Shown here: one piece after another, positions 10,690 through 30,487 of the stretch
Layout of the letters: every line of letters starts with the position of its first letter
Numbering within the stretch: the stretch's first letter is position 1
Assembly: GCF_008016535.1 (NCBI RefSeq)
Contig: NZ_SAXY01000021.1
Span: forward strand, 1-34,639
Reading direction: 5' to 3'
Length of the DNA: 34,639 bases
Source of the DNA: Brachyspira pilosicoli
GTDB taxonomy: Bacteria > Spirochaetota > Brachyspiria > Brachyspirales > Brachyspiraceae
The notes under the pieces: generated by a model
What the model saw: the letters and a program-made list of their open reading frames with translations, nothing else
Databases searched by the model: none
What the model was told of the DNA's origin: nothing
Translations under genes and position numbers: made by a program

Positions 10690-10780
10690 CTAAAAATTTT
10701 ATATTTTGTTGTAAATATTTCTGGGGCTTTGCCCCAGACCCCACTTCTTTTGGTGACCCAAAGAAGCAAAAGGACTGCAA
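10690..10780 (-). repeat. Modular hairpin repeat, copy A (leuC/leuD gap)
   Basis: Read on the minus strand, this copy has the order TGCAGTCCTTTTG, a hairpin with arms CTTCTTT and AAAGAAG (10744-10750 and 10760-10766), GGGGT, then a hairpin CTGGGGC-AAA-GCCCCAG (10721-10737), then an A-rich tail. The same order occurs in copies B and C. The first hairpin module of those copies is missing here. The orientation is opposite to B and C. Confidence 0.85.
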
Positions 10781-10875
10781 TTTTATATCCAAAATTATAA
10801 TTTACATAATGTATTATATCTATAATTAAAAAATTTCATACTTAATTATTCTAAATACATTTTGAAATATCTCTA

Positions 10876-12138
10876 TTATTTAGGCTCTGTTATGTATCCT
10901 GTCAAAGCACTGTATGCTGCTGTAGCAGGACTAGCCAAATATACTTTTGAAGTTTTATCTCCCATTCTTCCAACAAAGTTTCTATTAGTTGTAGTAACAG
11001 CAACCTCATCATGTGCAAGTATTCCCATATATCCACCCAAACAAGGTCCGCATGTAGGAGTTGATACCGCACAGCCTGCATCAATAAATATATCCATATA
11101 ACCTAATTTTATGCACTCTTTATAAACTTTTTGAGTAGCAGGAATAATTATACATCTTACATTCTTAGCTACTTTTTTGCCTTTTAAAATGTTGGCAGCA
11201 ATAACCATATCGGATAATCTTCCATTTGTACAAGAACCTATAACAACCTGATCAACTTTGATGTCTTTTAATTCTTTAGCTTCTTTTGTGTTTTCAGGCA
11301 AATGCGGACAAGCAACTGTAGGCTCAATTGCAGATAAATCAATATCATACTCTTTTTCGTATACTGCATCATCATCAGCTTTAAAAATAGTATAATCTCT
11401 TTTTACTATATCTTTTAAAAATTCTATAGTTTTATCATCAACTTCAAATATTCCGTTTTTAGCCCCTGCCTCAATAGCCATATTAGAAATACAAGCCCTG
11501 TCGTCCATAGTAAGAGATGAAACTCCTTCACCTCTAAACTCCATTGACTTATATAATGCACCATCAACTCCTATCATACCTATAATATGAAGTATAACAT
11601 CTTTTCCAGATACATTTGGCTTTAATTTTCCTTTAAGATTAAACTTAATAGCAGCAGGCACTTTAAACCAAACCTTTCCAGTAGCCATAGCAGCAGCCAT
11701 ATCAGTGCTTCCAACACCAGTAGAAAAAGCACCGAAAGCCCCATAAGTACATGTATGAGAATCAGCCCCAATTATAACTTCACCAGGAGCAACTAAACCC
11801 TTCTCTGGCAAAAGTGCATGCTCCACTCCCATATCACCCACATCATAATAATGAATAATATCATGCTTATTAGCAAAATCTCTGCATTGCTTACATTGCT
11901 CTGCAGCTTTGATGTCTTTGTTTGGAGCAAAATGGTCCATAACCAAAGCTATTTTCTCTTTATCAAAAACTTTATTAAAACCATATTTTTCAAATTCGTT
12001 AATTGCCACAGGGCTTGTTATGTCATTTCCTAAAACTAAATCGGTTCTAACCATTATAAGCTCACCTGCTTCAACTTTGTCAACTCCAGCATGTGCAGCT
12101 AAAATCTTTTGTGTGATAGTCATTTTTATATCCTTCAA
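10876..12138 (-). CDS. leuC: 3-isopropylmalate dehydratase large subunit
   Basis: LeuC is the [4Fe-4S] aconitase-family subunit that binds and isomerises isopropylmalate. The 420-residue product belongs to the shorter LeuC type, compared with about 466 in enterobacteria. The cluster ligands are visible in [13 protein letters not shown] and in [16 protein letters not shown]. Other landmarks are [32 protein letters not shown] and [10 protein letters not shown]. It lies between two repeat-filled gaps, 499 bases after leuA and 282 before leuD. These are unusually wide for an operon that is otherwise compact. Confidence 0.95.
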
Positions 12139-12166
12139 TAATTAATTTACACTATAAATTATTTTT

Positions 12167-12288
12167 ATTATTTGCAGGAGCTACCACCAAAGTTCTTTAA
12201 CGACCGAAGGAAGCACCTATGGTATTGGTATAAAAACTAGGGTGCTGCACACTGTGTACTTCGTTAAGTGTAAAGCCCTGCAAATAAT
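12167..12288. repeat. 122-bp nested inverted-repeat element (D) upstream of leuC
   Basis: ATTATTTGCAGG (12167-12178) and CCTGCAAATAAT (12277-12288) are perfect 12-bp terminal inverted repeats. Inside them TTAACGA (12197-12203) pairs with TCGTTAA (12261-12267), and AGCACCTA (12212-12219) pairs with TAGGGTGCT (12238-12246, one bulge). The three stems nest, predicting a long branched hairpin in either strand. The inner end lies 29 bases upstream of the leuC start. No ORF is present. It could be a structured leader RNA or a small MITE-like element. Confidence 0.8.
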
Positions 12289-12306
12289 TTAAAAAACTAA
12301 AAATTA

Positions 12307-12331
12307 ACAAACTTAAAAATTTTTAGTATAT
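12307..12331. repeat. 25-base tail repeat, first copy
   Basis: This stretch is identical base for base to 12563-12587. A third version with three mismatches lies at 14403-14427, after copy C. It begins ACAAACTTAAAAA and ends TTTTTAGTATAT. It follows element D here and follows the terminal hairpin in copies B and C, so it appears to be the shared 3' module of the repeat family. Confidence 0.75.
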
Positions 12332-12587
12332 ACCTAAACAACTATATTTTGTCATAGAAGTTTTTTCTTCAACTTTTTCCCGCCGCAAAAAGTTGCAAAA
12401 AGTGCATATATCATAATCAATATTTTATAAATATGTATAAAATATATCATAAAACCTAAATTTTAGCTAAAAAATGCAGTCTTTTTGGTTCTTTTGGTCA
12501 CAAAAAGAACTGGGGTCGTGGGGCAAAGCCACCACAAATAAAAACTTAAAAACTATATTTTGACAAACTTAAAAATTTTTAGTATAT
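12332..12587 (+). repeat. Modular hairpin repeat, copy B (leuA/leuC gap)
   Basis: The order on the plus strand is as follows. A hairpin has arms CAACTTTTT (12370-12378) and AAAAAGTTG (12387-12395) around loop CCCGCCGC, then CAAAAAGTGCA. About 75 AT-rich bases follow, then ATGCAGTC. A second hairpin pairs GTTCTTTT (12488-12495) with AAAAGAAC (12503-12510), then GGGGTC. A third hairpin pairs GTGGGGC with GCCACCAC (12518-12535, one bulge), and the 25-base tail ends at 12587. There is no coding potential. Confidence 0.85.
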
Positions 12588-12637
12588 CAAAAGAAGGCTT
12601 TTACAATCTATTAAAAATTGCATAAGCCCTATAAAAA

Positions 12638-14134
12638 TTATAATTTATTCAAACCATTAATATAAGCCATCAAACTTGCCTGTATAATATCAGTACTTAC
12701 TCCCCTTCCAATAACAGTTTTATTATCAGAAGCAAGTCTTACAATAACCTCTCCCAAAGCATCTTCACCTTCTGTAATGGCATTGATAGTATATGTAACC
12801 AATTTAGCTCTATTTGATGTTACAGAGTCAATAGCTCCAAATGCCGCATCAATAGGTCCGTTTCCTTTACCTATAGCCTCCACAACGTTATCCTTATTGT
12901 CTATTATAGAAACAGAAGCAAATGAAGATATTGAATCACTGTCATTAACCATAAAGCTTTTCAATGTATAATTAGGATTCTCTATATTTGTGCTTCCTAT
13001 CAATAATGCTTCAATGTCAGAATCTGTAACTACTTTTTTCTTGTCTGCCAAAGCCTTAAACTCTGTAAACTTATCTTCCAAAACTTTATCATCAATATCA
13101 TAACCCAAAGATTCTATTCTGTCTTTAAAAGCATGTTTACCAGAATGTTTACCTAACACCATTTTGTTTTGAGGTATACCTATATCTTCAACATTCATAA
13201 TCTCATAAGTAGAACGCTCTTTTAATACTCCATGTTGATGAATGCCAGCCTCATGAGCAAAGGCATTAGCACCCACTATAGCTTTATTAGGAGCAACAAC
13301 CATACCAGAAATTGTAGATAATAATTTTGACACTTTATAAATGCGTTTGGTGTTAATATCAGTGTATGCATTATAAAAATCTTTTCTTGTTTTTATTCCC
13401 ATTACAATCTCTTCTAAGCTAGCATTACCAGCACGCTCGCCTATACCATTAATAGTACATTCTACCTGAGTAGCACCAGCCAACACTGCAGATAAAGAAT
13501 TAGCAGTACCAAGTCCTAAATCATCATGACAATGCACAGATATATCAACATTATCTATACCCTTAACATTCTCTTTTAAATATTTTATTAAGTCAGCCAT
13601 CTCTAAAGGAGTAGTATATCCCACAGTATCAGGAACATTTATTGTAGTAGCACCGTTTTCTATTGCTGTAGAATAAGCCTTAGCTAAAAACTCTCTATCG
13701 CTTCTTGATGCATCCTCAGCAGAAAACTCTATAAACTCGAATTTGGTTTTAGTATAAGAAACAGATTCTTTTATAGTTTCTAATACTTGCTCTCTAGTCA
13801 TTTCCAATTTATGCTTTAAGTGTATATCGCTTGTAGCTATAAATGTATGAAGCATAGGGTGTTTTGCTTGAGCAAGAGATTCATAAGCTCTGTCTATATC
13901 AGCCTTATTACATCTTGCCAAACTAGCCAATTTAGCATTTTCTACAACCTTACTTACTTCTCTTATGGCATTGAAATCATCATCAGAGCATATAGCAAAA
14001 CCTGCTTCTATTATATCAACGCCCAATTTATCTAATTCAGCTGCCATCTCTAATTTTTCAGCCAAATTCATAGTACAACCGGGAGACTGCTCTCCATCTC
14101 TTAAAGTAGTATCAAAAATTTTAATCTTTCTCAT
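12638..14134 (-). CDS. leuA: 2-isopropylmalate synthase
   Basis: LeuA condenses acetyl-CoA with 2-ketoisovalerate, the committed step of leucine synthesis. The 498-residue protein has the catalytic barrel with DTTLRDGEQSPGC at the N-terminus, SAEDASRSD, the metal-binding HCHDDLGLGTANSLSAV, and GIGERAGNASLEEI, then the linker HEAGIHQHGVLK. The C-terminal regulatory (LeuA dimer) domain from about residue 370 would mediate leucine feedback inhibition. An AAAGG site lies upstream of the ATG. It is separated from ilvC by 346 bases with repeat copy C. Confidence 0.95.
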   Translation of the reverse strand: MRKIKIFDTTLRDGEQSPGCTMNLAEKLEMAAELDKLGVDIIEAGFAICSDDDFNAIREVSKVVENAKLASLARCNKADIDRAYESLAQAKHPMLHTFIATSDIHLKHKLEMTREQVLETIKESVSYTKTKFEFIEFSAEDASRSDREFLAKAYSTAIENGATTINVPDTVGYTTPLEMADLIKYLKENVKGIDNVDISVHCHDDLGLGTANSLSAVLAGATQVECTINGIGERAGNASLEEIVMGIKTRKDFYNAYTDINTKRIYKVSKLLSTISGMVVAPNKAIVGANAFAHEAGIHQHGVLKERSTYEIMNVEDIGIPQNKMVLGKHSGKHAFKDRIESLGYDIDDKVLEDKFTEFKALADKKKVVTDSDIEALLIGSTNIENPNYTLKSFMVNDSDSISSFASVSIIDNKDNVVEAIGKGNGPIDAAFGAIDSVTSNRAKLVTYTINAITEGEDALGEVIVRLASDNKTVIGRGVSTDIIQASLMAYINGLNKL

Positions 14135-14212: not shown

Positions 14213-14427
14213 GTTCTTTTTCCCGCAGCAAAAAGAACCAAAAAGTGCAAAATAGTAAATAATATAAATTATCTTTTATATATTAAGATGATTTATTAAA
14301 TTACTATCAAATGCAGTCCTTTTGCTTCTTTGGGTCACCAAAAGAAGTAGGGGTTCGGGGACTAGTCCCCGAAAATAACAAAAATATAAAAACTAATTTC
14401 CAACAAAGTTAAAAATATTCAGTATAT
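14213..14427 (+). repeat. Modular hairpin repeat, copy C (ilvC/leuA gap)
   Basis: It has the same architecture as copy B but different stem sequences. The first hairpin has arms GTTCTTTTT (14213-14221) and AAAAAGAAC (14230-14238) around CCCGCAGC, followed by CAAAAAGTGCA. After about 70 AT-rich bases come ATGCAGTCC and a hairpin CTTCTTT/AAAGAAG (14325-14331 and 14341-14347). Then comes the perfect 20-base palindrome TTCGGGGACTAGTCCCCGAA (14354-14373) and a diverged tail at 14403-14427. Confidence 0.85.
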
Positions 14428-28387: not shown

Positions 28388-30487
28388 ATGAAAAAATTGT
28401 TTCTTATATCTCTTTTTGCATCATTATTTTATAATTTTTCTTTTGCTTTAAATTATGTAGATTATAAAGTAGAAAATGGAGATACATTATACGGCATCGC
28501 TTTTGCTCATGATATGACTGCAAGTGAGTTTTTAAAACTAAATAAAATAAAAGATCCAGATTCATATAAATTAAAAGTTGGAGAAACTCTAAAGGTAAAA
28601 GAGAAAGGATATGATTTAGTATATGATGTTAAGGCTAAATCGTACGGACTTAAGCCAGAGAAAAAAAAGTCTTATACAGATTACAAAGTAAAAGATGGGG
28701 ATACTATACTTGGAATAGCTTTTTCTCATGGTATGAGTGCTAGTGAGTTTTGTACTATAAACAATATAGATGATTTCAATAAATATCAACTAAAGAAAGG
28801 TGAAATATTAAAAGTTGCAAATATTTCAAATACAGAAGAAGAAAAAATAAATCGTAATGTAGAAAATATAAAAAAAGAAATAGAGCAAAATAAATATGTA
28901 GATTATCAAGTAAAAGATGGAGATACTATTCTTGGCATAGCATTTTCGCATGGAATGAGTGCCAGCGAGTTTTGTGCTATAAACAATATAAAAGATTTTA
29001 ATAAGTATCAATTAAAAAAGGGCGAAATATTAAAAGTTGCCAATGCATCAAATATATCAAGAGAAGAAAATTTAAATAATAATAATAATAATAATACAGA
29101 AGAAAAAACAGAAATAAAAGAGCAAATAGAAAATAACTATACAGAATACAAAGTAAAAAATGGAGACACCCTTTACGGCATTGCATTCTCTCATGGTATG
29201 AGTGCTAATGAGTTTTTGAAGCTTAATAAAATAGACGATGCAAATAAATATAATCTTAAAATTGGAGAAACTCTAAAAGTAAAAGATAATAATAATTCTA
29301 ATATAGAAAGAGTAGAAAATAAAGATGTTGAAGAAATAGAAGAAAATAGAAATATATCAAAAGATAACAATAACTATATAGATTATAAAGTAAGAAATGG
29401 GGATACTCTCTACGGTATTGCTTTTGAAAATGATATGTCTGTTAGTGAGTTTTTAAAACTAAATAATATATCAAACCCTCTAACATACAAACTTAAAGTA
29501 GGTGAAATATTAAAAATTAATTCAAAAATACAAAATAAAGTAGATGCTTCAAGAACAACTAAAATATACAAAGTAAAAAGAGGAGATACTCTTGGTGCTA
29601 TAGCTATGAATAATTCTATGTCTTTAGACGAATTATTAAAATTAAACTCATTTAAAAAAGATTATGTATTAAAAATTGGCGACAACATAAAAGTATATGA
29701 TAAGATATCTGTAAAACTTGATAGCAACTCTATAGAAAAAGCTGACTACATAAAAATAGAAAGTTATAAAGTTAAAAGCGGTGACACTTTAAGTGAAATA
29801 GCAGTTGCTAAAAAAATGGATTTAGTAGAGCTTTATTCATTAAATGGATTAGATAATAATTATGTATTAAAAGTAGGCGATGTATTAAAAGTACATGGTG
29901 AAAGAGAAAAAATCAATAAAATTGTTATTTCTAATTACAAAGTAAAAAAAGGAGATACTTTATACTCTATAGCAAAAAATAATAAAATGGAATTAAAAAA
30001 ATTATTAGAGATAAACAATATAAAAGATGCTAATAAATATTCCTTACAGATTGGAGCTAATTTAAAAATAGAAACCATAAAAAGCGAATATGCAGATGAA
30101 ACTATACCAGATTCTTCATTTCAATGGCCTTATAGGGGTATAATAGTTGTTAGATATGGAGTTGACACATATAAACTTGCAAATAGAGGTATAAATATAT
30201 TAGGAGATATTGGAGATAAAGTGTTAGCTGCAGATTATGGTATTGTAGAATATGCTAATGATATTAGAGGATTTGGTAAAGTAGTTATAATAAAGCATAA
30301 AAATGGTTTTACAACTTCTTATGCTCATCTATCTAAAATAGCTGTAAAATTGGGTGATATAGTAAATAAAGGCGATTATATAGGCAATATAGGTGATACT
30401 GGCTTGGTTGATAAGAGTGAATTGTATTTCAAGATATCATACAGAGGAAGAGCTTTAGACCCTGTGAAACTACTTCCTAAAGACTAA
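28388..30487 (+). CDS. Eight-LysM protein with degenerate M23 (LytM) domain, NlpD-like
   Basis: A signal peptide (about 1-20) is followed by eight LysM peptidoglycan-binding repeats, each starting YKV..GDTL-like, spread over about residues 24-560. Repeats 2 and 3 are nearly identical (GDTILGIAFSHGMSASEFC and QLKKGEILKVAN in both). The C-terminal domain has the M23 fold markers GIVVRYG, GDKVLAADYGIVEYAN, GFGKVVIIKHKNGFTTSYAHLSK and VNKGDYIGNIGDTG. The zinc ligands are altered, though. The usual HxGxD reads N-R-G-I-N, and the final HxHFE reads ELYFK. This resembles NlpD/EnvC-type LytM factors, which activate amidases rather than cut peptidoglycan. Linkers between the early repeats are Asn/Glu-rich. 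Confidence 0.88.
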   Translation: MKKLFLISLFASLFYNFSFALNYVDYKVENGDTLYGIAFAHDMTASEFLKLNKIKDPDSYKLKVGETLKVKEKGYDLVYDVKAKSYGLKPEKKKSYTDYKVKDGDTILGIAFSHGMSASEFCTINNIDDFNKYQLKKGEILKVANISNTEEEKINRNVENIKKEIEQNKYVDYQVKDGDTILGIAFSHGMSASEFCAINNIKDFNKYQLKKGEILKVANASNISREENLNNNNNNNTEEKTEIKEQIENNYTEYKVKNGDTLYGIAFSHGMSANEFLKLNKIDDANKYNLKIGETLKVKDNNNSNIERVENKDVEEIEENRNISKDNNNYIDYKVRNGDTLYGIAFENDMSVSEFLKLNNISNPLTYKLKVGEILKINSKIQNKVDASRTTKIYKVKRGDTLGAIAMNNSMSLDELLKLNSFKKDYVLKIGDNIKVYDKISVKLDSNSIEKADYIKIESYKVKSGDTLSEIAVAKKMDLVELYSLNGLDNNYVLKVGDVLKVHGEREKINKIVISNYKVKKGDTLYSIAKNNKMELKKLLEINNIKDANKYSLQIGANLKIETIKSEYADETIPDSSFQWPYRGIIVVRYGVDTYKLANRGINILGDIGDKVLAADYGIVEYANDIRGFGKVVIIKHKNGFTTSYAHLSKIAVKLGDIVNKGDYIGNIGDTGLVDKSELYFKISYRGRALDPVKLLPKD

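Follow-up and report, generated by a model that had tools for sequence, protein, structure and literature searches.

A decayed, double-ended copy of a Brachyspira-wide palindromic repeat in the leuA–leuC gap of Brachyspira pilosicoli

The gap between leuA and leuC in a Brachyspira pilosicoli genome (G000) contains a 122-bp palindromic element that we regard, with considerable confidence, as a decayed and double-ended copy of a repeat found throughout the genus Brachyspira. It forms part of an array of about 410–430 bp, together with a hairpin of a different type (module B) and a second unit of the same family, which entered the gap in this lineage; we infer the steps of spread, module exchange and fusion that lie behind it. 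The element was found in a stretch of 34,639 nucleotides (contig NZ_SAXY01000021.1, positions 1 to 34,639), hereafter the window, to which all coordinates refer unless another locus is named.

The element upstream of leuC

The element occupies positions 12167–12288, 43 bp upstream of the leuC ATG (12123–12121, minus strand). The gap is flanked by leuC (10876–12123, minus strand; Pfam Aconitase, 1.6e-105) and leuA (12638–14134, minus strand; Pfam HMGL-like, 3.8e-92, and LeuA_dimer, 7.3e-33), and the nearest named relative of this leuC, with 99% identity, is that of B. pilosicoli T010 (G012). A first-pass annotation had described perfect 12-bp ends enclosing two nested stems, all of which are present: direct reading of the sequence gives the inverted ends ATTATTTGCAGG (12167–12178) and CCTGCAAATAAT (12277–12288), the outer of the inner stems TTAACGA (12197–12203) with TCGTTAA (12261–12267), and the innermost stem AGCACCTA (12212–12219) with TAGGGTGCT (12238–12246), which includes a single bulged base. 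The 12-bp arms are the sole perfect inverted repeat of that length in the window that contains 4 or more G+C and whose arms lie no more than 100 nt apart; since 8 of 100 dinucleotide shuffles of the window contain at least one comparable pair, the arms alone are only mildly unusual. Folded as RNA, the 122 nucleotides reach −37.8 kcal/mol (z −3.24, equalled by none of 200 shuffles) and the reverse strand −37.1 (z −3.53), and the DNA fold has a z of −3.48. The element is nevertheless placed beyond chance by its two halves, each of which recurs many times in the rest of the genome (E down to 1e-20). Elsewhere in the window, tandem direct repeats of about 175 to 240 nt (28454–30067) lie within a 699-aa ORF (28388–30487) and encode repeated protein domains.

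A dispersed family of intergenic repeats

The first-pass annotation had also remarked that the element shares its tail with modular repeats, a correct observation that proved the key clue. From reading the blast copies we defined the common core of the repeat family, for which we coin the name A unit. Its layout is AAAATGCAG, hairpin P1, TGGGG, hairpin P2 and GCAAATAAT. The 5′ end reads in detail AAAATGCAG-TnnTTTTG and leads into P1, which has the consensus [C/G]TTCTTT..NNCA..AAAGAA[G/C]; P2 comes as GGGGCAAAGCCCC or GGGGGCTAGTCCCC types, and GCAAATAAT is followed by an AT-rich tail that often has TTTTTAGTATATA at its end. Ordinary A units therefore have unlike ends, AAAATGCAG versus GCAAATAAT.

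The host genome holds at least 71 blast matches to 12140–12320, mostly to single halves, and 170 first-look candidates for the 76-nt core. This core is present in 23 of 26 Brachyspira genomes, many with at least 35 scored copies, where copy numbers are first-look candidates and at most 35–40 were scored per genome; units were surveyed in about 835 kb of fetched stretches plus individual loci. Outside the genus, 198 genomes drawn from the phylum gave only two short partial matches of 28 and 23 nt. A units are a Brachyspira-wide dispersed intergenic palindromic repeat. Searches by term of the open-licence literature found no mention of such a family in the genome papers of B. pilosicoli, B. hyodysenteriae and B. 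intermedia, nor in the strain-comparison and recombination papers on B. pilosicoli.

The two hairpins show compensatory changes across copies. Across 29 aligned minimal units, P1 and P2 are paired in 97.0% of cells, compared with 88.5% in shuffled alignments, and the covariation score is 0.254 against 0.101 shuffled (0 of 500 as high); slid controls scored at most 0.042, a comparison that disfavours them because the structure was read off these same 29 sequences. Of 75 units, 38 close P1 with G-C and 32 with C-G. Such compensatory changes could stem from hairpin-templated repair or conversion between copies, rather than from selection on structure.

Modular lengths and loop-sited mini-modules

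The lengths of typical A units are quantised at about 74, 96, 118 and 140 nt, and 79 full units divide into classes of 69–77 (42 units), 88–100 (18), 115–124 (14) and 137–144 nt (5). This is mostly because GC-rich mini-modules of 21–24 nt occupy either the P1 loop (for example ACCACAGGCACTTCCTTCGGTCGT) or the interval between P1 and P2 (for example TGCACGGTGTGTACTTCGTTAA), although in one unit of 140 nt (L018) the extra length comes from a B-like fragment and not from three mini-modules. A strict pattern for the ACCACAGGCACTTCCTTCGGTCGT block occurs 12 times in about 835 kb, always in an A or B element or a chimera of the two, an assignment made partly by eye: the context classifier left 3 of the 12 unassigned, which on inspection are the leuC element, an A/B chimera and an A unit. 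At one locus of the host genome (L029) extra blocks are present in both an A loop and a B loop, and the orthologous locus of G011 is without either.

In G011 an A-to-B chimera carries the alpha mini-module at its switch point (G011:C1 about 1183884; position 303884 of the joined stretch L184–L203), and the sequence aligned to it from the host genome is a longer A-B-A-B array (L002).

A two-tier parasitic system is a conceivable though unlikely reading: the A and B hairpins would spread through the genome, and the mini-modules of 21–24 nt might insert independently and specifically into their loops, moved by some activity other than a RAYT with the ability to recognise DNA or RNA in folded form.

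The leuC copy is a head-to-head composite

An A-unit profile (nhmmer) matches the element on both strands, from 12235 to 12163 on the minus strand (profile 22–120, E 9.4e-12) and from 12192 to 12292 on the plus strand (profile 18–120, E 1e-14), so that an A-unit 3′ part can be read on either strand, the two sharing a single P1 loop. The element (A′, 12167–12288) consists of the 3′ halves of two different A units, fused head to head, and the family's 3′ terminus CCTGCAAATAAT stands at either end of it, which accounts for the perfect 12-bp repeat. The normal 5′ end AAAATGCAG is missing. With a P1 and P2 core, the 3′ terminus GCAAATAAT and a significant profile match the element belongs to the family, as a degenerate, double-ended composite derived from it and not as a standard A unit.

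Sequence reading, profile and unit list together delimit the two outer parts. The minus-strand half (12167–12191) comprises the 3′ terminus and a decayed P2 of the CTAG type, GGTGGTAGCTCC, and the plus-strand half (12268–12288) a decayed P2 hairpin, GTGTAAAGCCC, and the 3′ terminus TGCAAATAAT. Between them lies the P1 hairpin-loop module (12192–12237; blast and unit list) with the alpha mini-module ACGACCGAAGGAAGCACCTATGGT at about 12199–12222. Blast copies of this loop module (q46–96) are found at about 20 places, and its P1 arms are decayed here to GTTCTTT and AAAAAC. The beta mini-module TGCACACTGTGTACTTCGTTAA (12246–12267, plus strand) lies between P1 and P2, and the same block is found in L002–L010. 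As it is confined to the right half, the two halves differ, which indicates that the fusion joins two different copies. Snap-back duplication of one unit was considered as an origin of the composite and rejected, for the two P2 halves are not of one type, the beta mini-module accompanying just one of them.

The nested inner stems are largely incidental. TTAACGA is one substitution away from the usual TTTTACGACC, and TCGTTAA is part of the beta mini-module; with decayed P1 arms, and with inner stems that join pieces belonging to different modules, the nested fold is not the conserved fold of the family.

A pattern search for the double-ended form found it at one place in the host genome and gave three matches in other genomes: an analogous double-ended element with a clear profile match in G025 (L180), a weakly analogous one in G015 (L179), and in G013 (L178) an ordinary A unit beside a chance TATTTGCAGG. 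Closely neighbouring A units are in direct orientation in all 17 pairs (one counted twice), none of which is an intact head-to-head precursor, and a head-to-head intermediate is for this reason hypothetical.

The array and its history among relatives

Between leuC and the leuA terminator the array reads A′-tail-B-spacer-A-tail. The composite is followed by the AT-rich tail common to A units (12289–12335, plus strand; last bases ACAAACTTAAAAATTTTTAGTATATA), which forms direct repeat D4 and recurs in the 3′ flanks of units. The module B hairpin TTCAACTTTTTCCCGCCGCAAAAAGTTGCAAAAAGTGCAT (12368–12407, plus strand) is one that recurs 5′ of A units, and the AT-rich B-to-A spacer (12408–12470, plus strand; ending in TTTTAGCTAAA) exists in many copies, with matches running across it in L025, L030, L018 and L026. 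The second A unit (12471–12542, plus strand; nhmmer E 5e-12) is without a mini-module, and its tail (12543–12585, plus strand) is the right end of the array. Empty-site alignment shows that this tail adjoins the intrinsic-terminator hairpin of leuA (12597–12628, minus strand), which in relatives carries AAAGCCCTTTTTT and here has the T run TTCTTTT beside the insertion. A third recurrent module, a CCGCACGGTAATG...CTTCTTAGTCGTGCGG hairpin followed by GGGAGTGCCTTTTAATGTACAATTAAATTATAAAATTTATAATA, lies directly 5′ of A units at seven other loci (L147, L149, L017, L020, L009, L175 and L006).

The leuA–leuC gap measures 433 bp here and 21 bp in G011 and G013, where it is empty, as it also is in T010 (G012); in G016 one A unit lies there, pointing the other way. 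With three relatives empty and a different occupant in a fourth, gain of the array in this lineage is the simplest reading, loss being the less likely course. The neighbouring gaps are similarly changeable. Profile and alignment place another A unit in the leuC–leuD gap (10712–10783, minus strand), which is occupied by an A unit in G013 too, by B in G011 and by B in reverse orientation in G016. In the gap beyond leuA an A unit (14309–14383, plus strand) stands beside a B module (about 14235–14265); G016 also has B plus A there, G013 a pair facing the opposite way, and G011 neither. In this gap upstream of leuA the internal parts of the unit have been replaced at a fixed site between G000 and G016, and at another locus (L173) the flanks agree with G011 while the closing pair of P1, the loop and the P2 type are all swapped. 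An A unit of about 190 bp (L013, 1412–1600) lies beside an intrinsic terminator, which is intact in the corresponding empty site of G011 (G011:C1 about 1266091).

Gene context

Gene neighbours were assigned by a simple ORF caller (ORFs of at least 70 aa), and 70 of the 79 units lie outside such ORFs. The 67 units with both neighbours are distributed over 44 tandem, 21 convergent and 2 divergent gaps; 2 divergent among the 23 divergent and convergent gaps corresponds to a binomial probability of 3.3e-5 under equal odds. Units avoid gaps with two promoters, and there is no sign of a general upstream regulatory role.

The family might have a selected post-transcriptional role that keeps its hairpins intact, as a 3′-end mRNA stabiliser or RNase site of the kind argued for REP and ERIC. 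The covarying hairpins are consistent with such a role, as is the location of 65 of the 67 scored units downstream of at least one gene. However, units in tandem gaps show no bias towards the sense strand (24 sense, 20 antisense), and close relatives differ in whether a particular gap is occupied, by which type of module and in which orientation; this role is unlikely.

A-unit tails such as 12559–12585 (plus strand), TTGACAAACTTAAAAATTTTTAGTATATx, resemble an outward sigma-70 promoter (TTGACA-17-TATATx); a few tail copies seen by eye have TTGACA-17-TATATA, and a few lie just 5′ of start codons (L004, L159). A reading of the tails as mobile promoters was not adopted, given the lack of orientation bias in tandem gaps.

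A dispersed repeat rather than a leuC regulator

The first-pass annotation had offered a structured leader RNA, a small RNA or a MITE-like unit, and had proposed that many copies at unrelated sites with empty-site alleles would favour a mobile repeat. Both were found. Copies lie between unrelated genes and not always upstream of the same ones, and together with the empty orthologous gap they favour a dispersed repeat over a regulator of leuC.

The MITE-like suggestion came closest: a short, non-coding, intergenic sequence with strong dyad symmetry, many copies and empty-site alleles behaves like a mobile repeat. That the 122 bp moved whole as a classical MITE, by means of 12-bp terminal inverted repeats recognised in trans by an IS transposase, is nonetheless very improbable. 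The exact double-ended form occurs at one place only in the host genome, the 12-bp ends are not the family's terminal repeats, ordinary units having unlike ends, and the insertion is the whole array rather than 122 bp. In addition, the alignments inspected reveal no clear target-site duplication, and no matching IS was identified in searches for Y1 and reverse transcriptase genes.

Still harder to sustain is a structured leader RNA controlling leuC, whether attenuator, T-box-like or riboswitch. The proximity of the element to the leuC start codon and its strong folding on both strands would suit such a leader, yet its inner stems link parts of different modules; Rfam gives no match at the gathering threshold in the whole window, the same modules occur between unrelated genes in either orientation, and the sequence upstream of leuC, where it was read in other Brachyspira genomes, does not contain the element, the empty sites of G011, G012 and G013 included. 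Whatever effect there may be on leuC would follow incidentally from the insertion of 400 bp into its 5′ region. Least credible of all is a small regulatory RNA gene, for despite the stable fold and the covarying hairpins of the family a scan of 12100–12680 found 3 sigma-70 promoter-like sites against 3.3 expected and 0 terminators, neither above shuffles, and the 170 candidates in one genome with their reshuffled modules are unlike an sRNA gene.

The spread of the dispersed repeat can be envisaged as follows. A units would propagate as non-autonomous, probably selfish DNA, copied by a machinery that recognises their hairpins in single-stranded DNA or RNA, and would settle in AT-rich DNA near gene ends, the sites of least harm. 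Nearly identical hairpins may let copies swap modules, whether by ectopic conversion or by template switching. The leuC element would have formed when the 3′ halves of two different, oppositely oriented units were joined at the P1 hairpin, whose arms, identical in either orientation, could serve as the junction point.

A Y1/RAYT transposase (PF01797) was detected in 0 of 26 Brachyspira genomes, positive controls being detected. Reverse transcriptase (PF00078) shows no correlation with units across the 26 genomes: it is present in 7, including G001 and G003 in which no units were detected, and absent from most unit-rich genomes. The host genome has one reverse transcriptase gene (G000:C40:29314–29955). 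The few junctions inspected show no evident target-site duplication; they are AT-rich, with a few bases replaced, which renders the exact ends of the mobile unit uncertain. Neither such a duplication nor a Y1 transposase nor an autonomous relative was found, and the route of spread set out above is hypothetical.

Relation to known repeats

Short modular repeats are known from other bacteria. The BOX elements of Streptococcus pneumoniae (boxA-boxBn-boxC) are short, intergenic and modular, with hairpins and many copies (PMC3049150). A units resemble them in kind, not by descent, being intergenic, non-coding and hairpin-forming with a variable number of modules, as seen in the quantised lengths and in presence or absence at one locus. 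They differ in that their mini-modules are of several sequence types and lie within a hairpin loop or between two hairpins; no sequence relation is claimed. In REPINs two REP sequences form an inverted doublet, and the element is linked to a RAYT (Y1) gene (PMC3116915). Like REP and REPIN sequences, A units are extragenic palindromic repeats in spaced clusters and likely form hairpins in ssDNA or RNA, but no Y1 gene occurs in the 26 Brachyspira genomes, and A units that lie close together point the same way instead of forming inverted doublets of a palindromic 16-mer-like repeat.

ERIC, NEMIS-Correia and other bacterial MITEs are intergenic, 70–200 bp long and of high dyad symmetry, and some of them, the Correia/NEMIS elements of about 107 and about 155 bp, carry an additional block inside (PMC2229807). 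A units are likewise intergenic, of similar size and dyad-symmetric with extra internal blocks; however, they have several distinct mini-modules at two positions instead of one internal block. The terminal inverted repeats, TA ends and target-site duplication of MITEs are lacking or unseen in the A family. Elhai and colleagues reportedly described in 2008 small dispersed repeats of cyanobacteria, 21–27 nt long, that appear inside other repeats. The likeness lies in blocks of about 20–27 nt within other repeats, whereas sequences and hosts are unrelated and the mini-modules here are found only inside A and B hairpin elements.

Implications

These results remove a false candidate for a leuC riboregulator and expose a repeat family that goes without mention in the Brachyspira genome papers searched by term. 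Since one and the same gap can hold different units in closely related genomes, the repeats could be used as markers for typing; they can also mislead read mapping and genome assembly in these gut spirochaetes. The mini-modules, which sit in loops in quantised lengths and are present or absent at orthologous hairpins, offer a test bed for the multiplication of sequences of about 22 nt in a RAYT-less genome.
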